From Mycolicibacterium chubuense (GTDB taxonomy: Bacteria > Actinomycetota > Actinomycetes > Mycobacteriales > Mycobacteriaceae): DNA of 39,805 nucleotides. Both the position numbers and the translations under genes were made by a program. The stretch covers positions 174,210 to 214,014 of the forward strand of contig NZ_JYNX01000031.1 of the NCBI RefSeq assembly GCF_001044255.1, read 5' to 3'. Numbering within the stretch: the stretch's first letter is position 1; each line of letters begins with the position of its first letter. A model generated the notes under the pieces. It was given only the letters and a program-made list of their open reading frames with translations, did no database searches and was not told where the DNA came from. Below, in pieces: positions 32,672 to 38,119 of this stretch.

Positions 32672-32675
<4 letters not shown>

Positions 32676-33460
32676 GCCGGTTGGCAAGCGTTTTCGCGTC
32701 GTGCCGGGATGAGGACCGGGCGGCGCTGATCGGCTACCTGCCGACCGGGTTCCCGGATGTCGAGACCTCGATCGCCGCGATGGTCGCCCTGGTCGAGGCG
32801 GGCTGCGACGTGATCGAGGTCGGCATCGCGTACTCGGACCCGGGCATGGACGGCCCCACCATCGCGGCGGCGACGGAGGTCGCGCTGCGGGGCGGGGTGC
32901 GGGTGCGGGACACGTTCCGGGCTGTCGAGGCGATCAGCAACGCCGGCGGCCACGCCGTGGTGATGACCTACTGGAATCCCGTGCTGCGCAAGGGTGTTGA
33001 CGCATTCTCCCGCGACCTCGCCTCGGCGGGCGGGCTCGGGATGATCACGCCGGACCTGATTCCGGACGAGGCCGACGAGTGGCTGGCCGCTTCGGAGGCG
33101 CACGACTTGGACCGAATCTTCGTGGTTGCGCCGTCCTCGACGCCGGAGCGGCTGAGCGCGACGGTCGATGCGTCCCGGGGATTCGTGTACGCGGCGTCGA
33201 CGATGGGTGTGACCGGTGCTCGCGACGCAGTCTCCAACGCGGCGCCGGAACTCGTCCAGCGGATCAAGGAACTCTCCGACATCCCGGTCGGTGTCGGTCT
33301 GGGCGTGCGGTCGCGCGAGCAGGCGGCGCAGATCGGCTCCTACGCGGACGGGGTGATCGTGGGGTCGGCGCTGGTGTCGGCGCTGACCGACGGCGTCCCC
33401 GCGATGCGGGCATTGACAGAAGAACTGGCTGACGGGGTACGGCAGAGGATCACTGCGTGA
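32672..33460 (+). CDS. trpA: Tryptophan synthase alpha chain
   Basis: TrpA splits indole-3-glycerol phosphate and channels indole to TrpB. The 262-residue barrel has the catalytic Glu49 and Asp56 in [29 protein letters not shown], and the phosphate loop [12 protein letters not shown]. It overlaps trpB by four bases at its start and lgt by four bases at its end (GTGA). The link to lgt ties membrane lipoprotein processing to the trp transcript. Confidence 0.96.
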
Positions 33461-36400
33461 CATCGACGGTCTTGGCGTACATCCCGAGTCCTTCGCAGGG
33501 TGTGTGGCACCTCGGCCCGTTCCCGCTGCGGGCCTATGCGCTGTTCATCATCGCCGGCATCGTGGCTGCGCTGGTCCTGGGTGACCGGCGCTGGGTGGCA
33601 CGCGGTGGCGAGCCCGGCGTCATCTACGACATCGCGCTGTGGGCGGTGCCCTTCGGTCTCATCGGCGGTCGGCTCTATCACGTCATCACCGACTGGCGGA
33701 CCTACTTCGGGGAGGACGGAGCGGGATTCGGGGCCGCCCTGCGGATCTGGGACGGCGGGCTCGGCATCTGGGGCGCGGTGGCGCTGGGCGCCATCGGAGC
33801 GTGGATCGCCTGCCGGCGGCGGGAGATACCGCTGCCCGCGTTCGGGGACGCGATCGCGCCGGGAATCATCCTCGCCCAGGCGATCGGGCGGATCGGCAAC
33901 TACTTCAACCAGGAGCTGTACGGGCGCGAGACGACGCTGCCGTGGGGCCTGGAGATCTACGAGCGGGTGAATTCCGCCGGGGTGCCGGACTCGCTGAACG
34001 GGGTGTCGACCGGGGAGCTCATCCAGGTCGTCCACCCGACGTTCCTGTACGAGTTGCTGTGGAACCTGCTGGTGTTCGCGGCGCTGCTGATCATCGATCG
34101 CCGGTTCCGCATCGGGCACGGCCGACTTTTCGCGATGTATGTGGCCGGGTACTGCGTGGGCCGGTTCTGGATCGAGCTGATGCGCAGCGACGCCGCGACG
34201 CACCTGGCGGGCATCCGGGTGAACTCCTTCACGTCGACCTTCGTGTTCATCGGCGCGGTGGTGTACATCATGGTCGCGCCGAAGGGCCGCGAGGATCCGA
34301 TGCTGCTGCGCGGCAAGCAGGAGGGCGACGAGTCGCGCGCCGAGGAGTTGGTCAAGGATCTGGCGGTCGGCGCGTCGACGGCGGGTGTGGTCGCCGCGGC
34401 GACCGTCGCGGCCGAGGACGACGAGAAGTCGGTGGCGCAGGCGGCCGAGGACGACGCCGACGAGACCGATGTCCTGGTCGGGCGGGAAGCGGACCTGGAA
34501 ACCGTCGAGGGCGACGAGGTCGCTGACGGTGAGGAGTTGGTCGTTCCTTCCGACGACAGCATTGAGCCCGAAGCGGGCCTGGGGTCCGTCGAGGGTGACG
34601 AGGTCGCTGAGGCGGTAGACGGTGCGGCCGAAGCGCACGCCGTCGCGGTCGACGGTGAGGAAGCGGCCGAGGCGCTGGTCGAGCCTGAGGGCGAACCGGA
34701 GTCACTGGAAGCAGACGAGGTCGCGGACGCTGTTGATCTGGCGGACGAGGCGCCCGAGGTGGCAGTTGAGGGTGAGGATGCCGCTGAGGCGTTGACCGAT
34801 GAGGCCGAGAGCGAGTCTGAAACTGCCGAGCCGGAGGCGGGTCTGGGGTCGGTCGAAGGTGACGAGGTCGCGGAGGCTGTGGGCGATGCTGCGGTGGCTC
34901 ACCAGGTCGCCGTGGAGGGCGAGGACGCTGCTGAGGCGTTGACCGATGGGGCCGAGCTCGAGACTGCTTCGCCCGAGGCGGGTCTGGGGTCGGTCGAGGG
35001 TGACGAGGTCGCTGACGCTGTGGGCGATGCTGCGGTGGCGCACGAGGTCGCGGTGGAGGGCGAGGACGCTGCTGAGGCGTTGACCGATGGGGTCGAGAGC
35101 GAGCCCGAGGCTGCCGAGCCGGAGGCGGGTCTGGGGTCGGTCGAAGGTGACGAGGTCGCGGAGGCTGTGGATGACGCCGCCGTGGCGCACGAGGTCGCCG
35201 TCGAGGGCGAGGACGCTGCTGAAGCGCTGACTGATGAGGCCGAGAGCGAGCCCGAGGCTGCCGAGCCCGAGGAAGAGCCCGAGTCTGCCGAGCCGGAGGC
35301 GGGTCTGGGGTCGGTCGAGGGTGACGAGGTCGCGGAGGCTGTGGGCGATGCTGGGGTGGCGCACGAGGTCGCGGTGGAGGGCGAGGACGCTGCTGAGGCG
35401 TTGACCGATGGGGTCGAGAGCGAGCCCGAGGCTGCTGAGCCCGAGTCTGCTGAGCCCGAGTCTGCGGAACCTGAGGCGGGTCTGGGGTCGGTCGACGGTG
35501 ACGAGGCCGCCGAGGCTGTTGACGATGCTGCGGTGGCGCACCAGGTCGCCGTAGAGGGCGAGGACGCTGCTGAGGCGTTGACCGATGAGGCCGAGAGCGA
35601 GCCCGAGACTGCGGAGCCCGAGTCTGCCGAGCCGGAGGCGGGTCTGGGGTCGGTCGACGGTGACGAGGCCGCCGAGGCTGTTGACGATGCTGCGGTGGCG
35701 CACCAGGTCGCCGTAGAGGGCGAGGACGCTGCTGAGGCGTTGACCGATGAGGCCGAGAGCGAGCCCGAGACTGCGGAGCCCGAGTCTGCCGAGCCGGAGG
35801 CGGGTCTGGGGTCGGTCGACGGTGACGAGGCCGCCGAGGCTGTTGACGATGCTGCGGTGGCGCACCAGGTCGCCGTAGAGGGCGAGGACGCTGCTGAGGC
35901 GTTGACCGATGAGGCCGAGAGCGAGCCCGAGACTGCGGAGCCCGAGTCTGCCGAGCCGGAGGCGGGTCTGGGGTCGGTCGACGGTGACGAGGCCGCCGAG
36001 GCTGTTGACGATGCTGCGGTGGCGCACCAGGTCGCCGTAGAGGGCGAGGACGCTGCTGAGGCGCTGACCGATGGGGCCGAGGCAGAGCCCGAGGCCGAGC
36101 CCGAGTCTGCCGAGCCCGAGTCTGCTGAGCCCGAGGCGGGTCTGGGCTCGGTCGACGGCGATGAGGCCGCCGAGGCGGTTGACGATGCTGCGGTGGCGCA
36201 CCAGGTCGCCGTAGAGGGCGAGGACGCTGCTGAGGCGTTGACCGATGGGGCCGAGGCCGAGCCCGAGTCTGCCGAGCCAGAGGCGGGTCTGGGGTCCGTC
36301 GAAGGTGACGAGGTCGCTGTGGCTGTTGACGACGCCGCGGTGGCGCACGAGGTCGCCGGCGGCGACACCGACGCCGTTGAGACGTCCGACGAGCCGGCTG

Positions 36401-36627
36401 CCGACGACAGCGATGAGGCCACATCGACCGATGACGAGGCATCTGCCTCTGACACGGCTGCCGTCGAGGGCACGGGCGCGGCTGAAGCCCTCACCGCCGA
36501 CCCCGAGCCACCCGCGCCGACCTCGCCACCGGCCATGACTTATCGCGAATCCCGCACTCCGACAACCATTCCCGCGGAGGTCGGCCAGCGGGTCCGGCAG
36601 TGGATCCGTCGGCGCAGGAACCGCTGA
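33457..36627 (+). CDS. lgt: Prolipoprotein diacylglyceryl transferase with a giant acidic repeat tail
   Basis: Lgt moves diacylglycerol from phosphatidylglycerol to the lipobox cysteine of prolipoproteins. The first 275 or so residues are a normal Lgt: hydrophobic helices, RIWDGGLGIWGA (96-107), the family signature GRIGNYFNQE (144-153), HPTFLYELLWN and GRFWIELMRSD. The remaining 780 residues are an extension that should lie in the cytoplasm. A linker (276-370) leads into twelve repeats (about 371-967) of 43-59 residues built on PEAGLGSVxGDE...AVEGEDAAEALTD. A further acidic stretch follows, then a basic tail (VRQWIRRRRNR). From residue 344 to 1029 there is no Lys or Arg. Mycobacterial Lgt proteins usually carry some tail (468 residues in all in M. 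tuberculosis), but this one is over twice that. GTG start overlaps trpA. Confidence 0.93.
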   Translation: MTSTVLAYIPSPSQGVWHLGPFPLRAYALFIIAGIVAALVLGDRRWVARGGEPGVIYDIALWAVPFGLIGGRLYHVITDWRTYFGEDGAGFGAALRIWDGGLGIWGAVALGAIGAWIACRRREIPLPAFGDAIAPGIILAQAIGRIGNYFNQELYGRETTLPWGLEIYERVNSAGVPDSLNGVSTGELIQVVHPTFLYELLWNLLVFAALLIIDRRFRIGHGRLFAMYVAGYCVGRFWIELMRSDAATHLAGIRVNSFTSTFVFIGAVVYIMVAPKGREDPMLLRGKQEGDESRAEELVKDLAVGASTAGVVAAATVAAEDDEKSVAQAAEDDADETDVLVGREADLETVEGDEVADGEELVVPSDDSIEPEAGLGSVEGDEVAEAVDGAAEAHAVAVDGEEAAEALVEPEGEPESLEADEVADAVDLADEAPEVAVEGEDAAEALTDEAESESETAEPEAGLGSVEGDEVAEAVGDAAVAHQVAVEGEDAAEALTDGAELETASPEAGLGSVEGDEVADAVGDAAVAHEVAVEGEDAAEALTDGVESEPEAAEPEAGLGSVEGDEVAEAVDDAAVAHEVAVEGEDAAEALTDEAESEPEAAEPEEEPESAEPEAGLGSVEGDEVAEAVGDAGVAHEVAVEGEDAAEALTDGVESEPEAAEPESAEPESAEPEAGLGSVDGDEAAEAVDDAAVAHQVAVEGEDAAEALTDEAESEPETAEPESAEPEAGLGSVDGDEAAEAVDDAAVAHQVAVEGEDAAEALTDEAESEPETAEPESAEPEAGLGSVDGDEAAEAVDDAAVAHQVAVEGEDAAEALTDEAESEPETAEPESAEPEAGLGSVDGDEAAEAVDDAAVAHQVAVEGEDAAEALTDGAEAEPEAEPESAEPESAEPEAGLGSVDGDEAAEAVDDAAVAHQVAVEGEDAAEALTDGAEAEPESAEPEAGLGSVEGDEVAVAVDDAAVAHEVAGGDTDAVETSDEPAADDSDEATSTDDEASASDTAAVEGTGAAEALTADPEPPAPTSPPAMTYRESRTPTTIPAEVGQRVRQWIRRRRNR
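34567..36357 (+). repeat. Twelve coding tandem repeats in lgt
   Basis: Units begin at 34567, 34696, 34831, 34972, 35119, 35293, 35470, 35632, 35794, 35956, 36130 and 36277. Their lengths are 43-59 codons, differing mostly in the PESAE-type spacer at the end of each unit. Eleven units begin PEAGLGS and one (34696) begins PESLEA. The first units are the most divergent and the middle ones nearly identical. A degenerate half-unit (DLETVEGDEVAD) precedes the array at about 34495. Confidence 0.95.
35473..36063 (+). repeat. Perfect 162-bp tandem repeat, 3.65 copies
   Basis: Comparing the sequence with itself at a shift of 162 bases shows no mismatch through this 591-base stretch, including third codon positions. 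The period is 54 codons, so copy-number change keeps the lgt frame. Such identity points to recent duplication or ongoing slippage. It is also a place where short-read assembly could miscount copies. Confidence 0.95.
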
Positions 36628-36660: not shown

Positions 36661-36678
36661 GGTGTCGGCCGCCGCAAT

Positions 36679-36684
36679 TAGGAT
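36679..36684 (+). promoter_or_regulatory. -10 element of the DUF222/HNH gene
   Basis: TAGGAT is followed by exactly seven bases and the ATG at 36692, with no ribosome-binding site. This is the leaderless pattern and decides the start codon. Confidence 0.6.
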
Positions 36685-36691
36685 CGAATGT

Positions 36692-38119
36692 ATGTTCGAT
36701 GCCGGTGATCCTGCGACGCTGATCGACGCGATGGCTGCGGCCTCGCGGGCGGAGTCGGCGGCGATCGCCGAGCGCCTTCGTGCGGTTGCCGCGCTGTATG
36801 AGGTGCGTTGCGTCGATTACGCGGAGGCGCAGTTCTGGCGCACGGACGTGTTCGAGGCGGTCGCGGCGGAGGTGTCCGCGGCGCAGAACATCAGCCGGGG
36901 GCGCGCGGGATGCCAGGTGCGGGTCGCGGTGTCGCTGTATCAGCGCCTGCCGCAGGTGGCGGCGGTGTTCGCCCGCGGCGACATCGACTATCGGGTGCTG
37001 CAGATGGTGATCAACCGCACCGCGAACGTCGAGGACGACATCATCGCCGGTCTGGACGCGTCGCTGGCCGAGCAGGTGCGCAAGTGGATGCGTCTCTCCA
37101 AGAAGAAACTGCGTGACCGCATCGACGTGTGGGTGGCCGACTACGATCCTGCCGCGGTTCGGGTGCCGCCCACCGTGGCGGAAAACTGCTACCTCGAGGT
37201 CGAAGCCCACCCCGAGGCGGCGGGTATGGCGATGGTGGGCGGTGTGCTGGATGCGGTCGACGCTTCAGCTTTCGATCAGCGCCTGGACTTGATCGCGGAC
37301 TCGGTGTGCGCCAACGATCCACGCTCCAAGCAGCAGCGCCGCGCGGCGGCGTGTGGCGCTATGGGGCGGCTGGAGTCGTCGTTGGCCTGCCTGTGCGGAT
37401 CCACCGACTGTCCGGCGGCGAAGGTGCGGGAGTCTGCCGCGCAGGTGGTCGTTCACGTGTTGGCTGAGCAGGCGACGCTGGAGGGGACCAGTCGGCGGCC
37501 GGGGTATCTGTCCGGGTTCGGTGTGCTGCCGGCCGAATCGGTCCGCAAGGCCGCCACGACCGCAAAGCTCAAGCCGGTGCGCTTCCCGAGCAATGAGCCC
37601 GAATCCGGTTACCGGCCCTCGGCCGGGCTGCGGGACTTCTTGCAGTGGCGGGATCTGACGTGCCGCTTTCCGGGATGCGACCGCCCGGTGGCTGGATGCG
37701 ATCTCGACCACACGACATCGTGGCCGTTCGGACCCACCCATGCCTCCGGCCTGAAGCATTACTGCCGCACCGATCATTTGATCAAGACCTTCTACACCGG
37801 GCCGAACGGGTGGAGCGACGAGCAGCGCCCCGACGGCACGATCGTGATCACGGCGCCGACCGGGCACGTCTACACCACCGACGCCCTCGGGGGAATCCTG
37901 TTCCCCGGGTTGGCGGTACCGACCGGGACCATAACGACCTCGACGCCGGTCGACGGCGCCGGGCGCACCGCGATGATGCCGATGCGCAAGACCACCCGAG
38001 AACAAGACCGCCGCGAGCGAGTCAAACAGGAACGCCGGCGCCGCCTCGAACTCAACGCCGAACAGGAACGCCAACGACAAGCCTGGCTGGCCGCCACATA
38101 CGAACCCCCACCGTTCTGA
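36692..38119 (+). CDS. DUF222 / HNH endonuclease-domain protein (13E12 repeat family)
   Basis: The 475-residue product has an N-terminal helical DUF222 domain (about 1-300) and a C-terminal HNH nuclease motif. The HNH part begins at Cys324 (CRFPGCDRPVAGCDLDHTTSW, with His340 as the first His) and continues through HYCRTDH. A highly charged Arg/Glu-rich tail (about 435-465) ends the protein. This is the 13E12 repeat family, present in many copies in mycobacteria; in M. tuberculosis such elements serve as integration sites for the phiRv1 prophage. The ATG at 36692 fits the leaderless promoter TAGGAT and the usual family start MFD. It interrupts the lgt-to-gltB region and may be a lineage-specific insertion, though no flanking repeats are seen. 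Confidence 0.9.
   Translation: MFDAGDPATLIDAMAAASRAESAAIAERLRAVAALYEVRCVDYAEAQFWRTDVFEAVAAEVSAAQNISRGRAGCQVRVAVSLYQRLPQVAAVFARGDIDYRVLQMVINRTANVEDDIIAGLDASLAEQVRKWMRLSKKKLRDRIDVWVADYDPAAVRVPPTVAENCYLEVEAHPEAAGMAMVGGVLDAVDASAFDQRLDLIADSVCANDPRSKQQRRAAACGAMGRLESSLACLCGSTDCPAAKVRESAAQVVVHVLAEQATLEGTSRRPGYLSGFGVLPAESVRKAATTAKLKPVRFPSNEPESGYRPSAGLRDFLQWRDLTCRFPGCDRPVAGCDLDHTTSWPFGPTHASGLKHYCRTDHLIKTFYTGPNGWSDEQRPDGTIVITAPTGHVYTTDALGGILFPGLAVPTGTITTSTPVDGAGRTAMMPMRKTTREQDRRERVKQERRRRLELNAEQERQRQAWLAATYEPPPF

Follow-up and report, generated by a model that had tools for sequence, protein, structure and literature searches.

An acidic C-terminal tail on trpA-linked mycobacterial Lgt, with repeated modules and a basic, tryptophan-containing tip: a possible tether beneath the membrane

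Introduction

Lgt carries out the committed step of lipoprotein biogenesis, and the lgt gene in the 39,805-nucleotide stretch of Mycolicibacterium chubuense DNA analyzed here (contig NZ_JYNX01000031.1; hereafter the window) encodes a protein that continues far beyond its catalytic core. This raises the question of what the extension is made of, how widely it is shared, and what it might do beneath the membrane. In M. tuberculosis, lgt is essential (PMC3850990) and its product carries, at the C terminus, a large extension with no homologs among known proteins (PMC13251419). The comparative study that treats this extension removed it from the analysis, cutting the protein at residue 303 for alignment, and its available text describes neither modules nor a tip (PMC13251419). 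No title or abstract among the matches listed in our literature search treats the Lgt tail. The enzyme and the existence of a tail are known; for the repeat module and the tip that we report here, we found no description in the Lgt literature examined, as far as its available text extends. We find that net-negative tails are the rule for trpA-linked mycobacterial Lgt in our sample, that many of them end in a basic, tryptophan-containing tip, and that some carry copies of a conserved 35-residue module.

Results

The window Lgt is read from a GTG start at 33457-36627 (+ strand) as one open reading frame (ORF) of 1056 residues with zero internal stops in the ORF list, and the preliminary description of an unbroken frame with a core to about residue 275 holds (Pfam LGT, 16-272). 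Its tail, residues 276-1056, comprises 781 residues with a net charge of -237 (254 Asp and Glu, 17 Lys and Arg), and the charge-hydropathy rule places it on the disordered side by composition, suggesting that it lacks a fixed fold. Lgt has seven transmembrane helices and a cytoplasmic C terminus (review, PMC8048626), in agreement with the earlier placement of a polyanionic tail on the cytoplasmic side. Also as first described, the positions of Lys and Arg jump from 343 to 1030, leaving zero, and no tryptic site, in 686 codons; 200 shuffles within codon positions gave a mean of 15.6 and never fewer than 9. The Lgt frame alone has neither stops nor Lys or Arg over residues 344-1029, where the other five hold 1-54 stops and 14-216 Lys or Arg, on which ground we rejected a chance open frame in GC-rich DNA. 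The open frame by itself is weaker evidence because antisense ORFs of 696, 548, and 545 residues overlap the lgt ORF, and the ratio of nonsynonymous to synonymous differences (pN/pS) within the repeat array, 0.45, is not taken as proof because one antisense frame gives 0.446. A Pfam search with the tail and with one repeat unit returned zero families at E up to 1, and a PDB sequence search with the tail or unit gave weak matches only (E 0.27 and 0.7). The possibility that LspA carries a matching tail was rejected, the LspA of the window genome being 197 residues long and devoid of an acidic tail.

Of the 148 genomes of the genus, 147 have a detectable Lgt core, and the listed open frames reach 1101 codons. 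For comparison of tails we used 147 distinct mycobacterial Lgt, a part of the matches drawn from 30 loci of the genus search, 80 named loci, and 60 chosen regions; most second Lgt copies in the genus lie outside this set. The gene stands directly downstream of trpA in 142 cases (128 with closed frames) and elsewhere in 5. Tails are net negative in 141 of the 142 trpA-linked proteins, open ones included, and the exception (L090) looks out of frame. The tail is therefore not the peculiarity of one Lgt for which it had been taken, and read-through of a pseudogene or an assembly error behind the long frame was rejected, since these tails are in frame and some come from single-contig genomes. A comparison of tails across mycobacterial Lgt, proposed in the preliminary description, gives lengths of 49-781 residues for the closed trpA-linked tails, the window tail being the longest of the 128. 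Residues K276, G277, R278, E279, P281, L284, and G286, at the start of the tail, are each common to 121-141 of the 141 trpA-linked tails over 40 residues. The 5 Lgt not beside trpA have tails of 29-69 residues with net charges of -2 to -9. Among 68 distinct Lgt of other genera in the family, tails span 12-360 residues and net charges of +4 to -103, in a set that is no fair sample of length because long frames partly guided the choice of 40 regions and the remaining 30 loci were the top-scoring ones.

A profile built from the window units and iterated over all tails detects a 35-residue module, with acceptance above 10 bits and 1000 shuffled tails as the null (top null score 6.1 bits in the last round). 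Of 145 mycobacterial tails, 51 contain the module, with 236 units in all, and the 55 tails from other genera contain none. The consensus begins with G[LV]G[AS]VEG[DE]E and continues with Ala at positions 13 and 17, [AV]H at 20-21, AVEG at 24-27, and Ala at 31; by eye, the two VEG halves resemble an internal duplication with a spacing of 20. Between species, module identity is 0.56, compared with 0.18 and 0.23 for the flanking 12-mers and a composition baseline of 0.18 (179 of the 236 units, from 46 species, with units too short or too near an end dropped and species pairs with cores > 90% identical excluded). In a scan of 60 genomes, 71 of 73 module matches, distributed over 18 genomes, fell in an Lgt frame, and the remaining 2 lie in what appears to be an Lgt tail truncated by the edge of a contig. 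The module is Lgt-specific within the searched genomes, yet not general.

At its far end, the tail reverses its charge. Defining the tip as a net charge of at least +3 over the final 15 residues, or an LWGV motif, we found it in 102 of 123 closed trpA-linked rows, a count that excludes the 14 open rows and five closed rows (L036, L083, L090, L138, and L156) whose ends look out of frame by eye. The charge test alone is passed by 94 of the 128 closed rows, L036 and L090 among them. In these 94 tails, which were selected by the charge of the last 15 residues, Arg and Trp make up 33.5% and 5.4% of the last 20 residues and 1.3% and 0.08% of the rest of the tail. Over the last 12 residues of the 102 tails, Asp and Glu fall from about 40% to 2-3% and Lys and Arg rise to 42-62%, with Trp at 19% at positions -8 to -5; examples of tail ends are RVRQWIRRRRNR, RLRRLFRRNR, RRWWRRRR, and RRVLWGVEVHRD. 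Identity counted from the C terminus among 17 tails of the window's kin (window included) is 0.62 in the last five residues, 0.37 in the next five, and 0.12-0.21 past residue 15. All 70 tails that reach 300 residues have the tip and none of the 10 shorter than 100 residues does; on a core tree (FastTree), tip presence needs 6 changes over the 123 rows by parsimony. The tipless rows comprise a 7-member clade whose tails measure 61-83 residues, 9 members of a clade of 10 (172-250 residues) whose tails end without a basic cluster, one pair, and three singles. Basic ends were seen by eye in 6 of the 68 Lgt of other genera (L187, L202, L203, L212, L219, and L222). A DNA pattern for the tip matched the window genome three times (reversed-pattern control, once): of the two matches that were read, one is the lgt tip and the other (L263) showed no ORF bearing such a tail.

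Some loci are of interest in their own right. Tails of 49-122 residues, all tipless, occur in L141, L144, L106, and L111, which belong to two 3.27-Mb genomes (the size of M. leprae-type genomes), M. tilburgii, and M. lepraemurium, as if the tail eroded with genome reduction. In one genome of the genus (G045; one contig, 6.3 Mb, 98% complete), the best core match has an E value no better than 4.5e-49, which suggests that the ordinary trpA-linked Lgt is either missing or strongly divergent there. Two consecutive same-strand Lgt matches, the second partial (query 3-220), lie at G134:C4:782256-784457 (L138), as in a tandem duplication.

Within the window array, exact GLGS starts number 11, at spacings of 47-59 residues plus one of 88 that conceals a degenerate unit, and the profile of the window unit counts 12. 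The earlier count of twelve repeats, with about 19 acidic residues in 54, is upheld, 19 being the number counted on the translation of a 54-residue unit. All 13 matches of a unit search in the window genome lie inside the lgt frame. The exact unit number is not secure because three consecutive units are identical in DNA, the longest exact repeat is 429 bp, and the strain's genome is a draft of 96 contigs. A 97% identical relative whose genome is a single 5.73-Mb contig (G054) has the same design, with 9 units in a 649-residue tail. In the M. chlorophenolicum draft (L032), an N stands within the array and the tail then departs from the Lgt frame, marking an assembly gap at the repeats; contigs of other relatives (e.g., L033, L034, and L041) also stop inside the tail.

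The gene is a trpA-linked lgt of a Mycolicibacterium, and its nearest named relative is M. chlorophenolicum. Pfam LGT (PF01790) matches the protein with E 1.1e-63 and 215.2 bits (cut-off 24.9), and TIGR00544 with 137.9 bits, above its cut-off of 118.9. The sole solved relative by sequence, 5azb/5azc (E 3.9e-10), aligns with core residues 8-248, and its chain of 300 residues lacks a long tail. Essential residues in E. coli Lgt are Y26, R143, N146, and G154, and in Actinobacteria W replaces H103 (PMC13251419); with numbering matched by a presumed offset that leaves R239 outside the mapping, the corresponding Y27, W105, R145, N148, and G156 are invariant across 30 mycobacterial Lgt proteins. The best NCBIfam match, NF009611 / PRK13108.1 (584.6 bits, residues 3-455), lies under its cut-off of 636 bits, so that by the NCBI rule the window Lgt is not filed under this equivalog, though it is plainly kin. 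All 30 members of alignment A1 match NF009611 at E 0.001, and since the model has 476 positions it already takes in part of such a tail; on the window Lgt its match stops short of most of the array and of the tip. The overlap of lgt with trpA had been held to exclude a pseudogene extension. The 4-base overlap is real, but it supports coupling of the lgt start and not the tail itself. Directly 3' of lgt, at 36662-38119 (+), lies a gene for a DUF222 protein (Pfam, 215.9 bits). The features of the locus are collected in Table 1.

Table 1. Features of the trpA-lgt locus, in positions of the window
Feature	Position	Strand	Remarks
trpA	32672..33460	+	Upstream gene; Pfam Trp_syntA 230.7 bits; stop and lgt start overlap by 4 bases
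Lgt catalytic core, residues 1-275	33457..34281	+	Pfam LGT 16-272; TIGR00544; 5azb/5azc
Juxtamembrane segment (KGREDPxxLxG) and first acidic stretch, residues 276-343	34282..34485	+	343 is the last Lys/Arg before the array
Lys/Arg-free stretch, 686 residues (344-1029)	34486..36543	+	Lys/Arg positions; shuffles
Array of 12 units, residues 374-968	34576..36360	+	Conserved 35-residue module alternating with variable-length, Pro/Glu-containing linkers
Three DNA-identical 162-bp units, residues 675-836	35479..35964	+	Copy number uncertain in the draft assembly
Basic/aromatic C-terminal tip, residues 1042-1056 (VGQRVRQWIRRRRNR)	36580..36624	+	Equal place and chemistry in 102/123 closed tails

Discussion

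The tail of mycobacterial Lgt resembles a tether that ends in a hook more than it does idle padding. Judging from sequence, we tentatively favor, at a probability of roughly 0.4, a polyanionic, disordered tether that carries docking modules and is attached to the inner leaflet through its tip. The cytoplasmic tail would then consist of three parts, namely a long, Lys/Arg-free acidic tether that is probably disordered, the repeated 35-residue modules, and the Arg/Trp tip, whose most likely target would be the anionic inner leaflet or some other polyanion located at it. Rooted in a transmembrane helix, repelled by the anionic membrane, and ending in an Arg/Trp cluster, such a chain would form a loop fixed at either end. 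Charge repulsion along the acidic linkers may keep this chain extended, the modules could offer several binding sites in series to a cytoplasmic or Sec-side partner, and a partner so bound might help feed preprolipoproteins to Lgt. The purely polyanionic tether or brush first proposed for the window protein retains its charge in this scheme, but it misses both the basic, Trp-containing tip and the conserved module. A variant that gives the modules the leading part is possible, if on balance unlikely: 35-residue binding modules with a near-invariant His, set on a membrane-pinned polyanionic loop, would allow Lgt in many mycobacteria to act as a multivalent hub and concentrate a specific partner beneath the membrane, be it Sec, signal peptidase, or a chaperone.

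Several observations weigh against a pinned tether with docking modules. The tip was defined only after the tail ends had been inspected, and it is missing in 21 of 123 rows, which group in a few lineages; several of these lineages have acidic tails of 120-250 residues. The association of the tip with tail length loses significance when kinship is taken into account (of 8 independent pairs on starred branches, about 2 are concordant and 6 show no difference; median p 0.5), and we rejected that association as causal. An amphipathic helix of the FtsA type was also rejected for the tip, the tips not exceeding shuffles (4 of 102 at p<0.05). No module copy is detectable in 94 of 145 mycobacterial tails, and of 126 tails judged by a crude measure, only 24 show self-similarity more than 1.5-fold that of the best shuffle. 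Choosing units by profile score also inflates their identity, although the contrast with the flanks is still large.

The charge of the tail might act directly, attracting the positive n-regions of lipoprotein signal peptides (or parts of Sec or the ribosome) and so raising the local substrate concentration, with the tip secondary. The n-region of a lipoprotein signal peptide stays on the cytoplasmic side. Such a substrate trap is consistent with the positive charge that this region carries (PMC8048626), and acidity, present in 141 of 142 trpA-linked tails, is kept more widely than the tip (102 of 123), which favors some direct role of charge. A trap alone would leave the sequence-conserved module and the tip unexplained, and closed tails vary in length from 49 to 781 residues although no corresponding change in substrates is known; we regard it as live but rather doubtful. 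The tail might also be a loosely constrained repeat expansion, in which nothing but net charge and solubility is kept and GC-rich tandem duplications expand and contract to little effect. Unit number differs among close relatives (12 in the window; 9 in L112, whose core is 97% identical; and 9 in L032, a gapped draft with 98% identity), linkers next to the modules have diverged to, or almost to, the composition baseline, and the tipless clade of 7, which is fully supported, manages with tails of just 61-83 residues. Zero Lys or Arg over 686 codons, a module conserved between species, and a tip retained at the far end of tails that differ greatly in length speak against drift of this kind, and we consider this explanation, also live, unlikely.

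The tip may not reach the membrane at all and could instead fold back onto the acidic chain or the Lgt core, in a self-contact that might be autoinhibitory. Opposite charges do share one chain, and tip chemistry differs by lineage (RWLRRRR, RRWWRRR, and RRVLWGV), as if only charge plus an aromatic residue mattered; the enrichment of Trp suggests an interface rather than pure charge, and we hold fold-back to be improbable.

M. smegmatis has two Lgt, of which MSMEG_3222 is the major enzyme (PMC13251419); it may be the trpA-linked, tailed copy. If the modules or tip of a tethered tail do bind a partner or the membrane, mycobacteria would have a cytoplasmic layer on lipoprotein maturation, unlike the tail-less model enzyme, and the anatomy of core, acidic linker, 35-residue module, and tip makes this idea directly testable. 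There is a parallel in cell division, where FtsZ has a C-terminal linker with a conserved peptide and FtsA has a membrane-targeting tail. The Lgt tail may work alike, as a folded core followed by a variable disordered linker and a short conserved tip, and homology is not claimed. Because FtsZ and FtsA are soluble and Lgt is already seated in the membrane, the tip of Lgt would close a loop.

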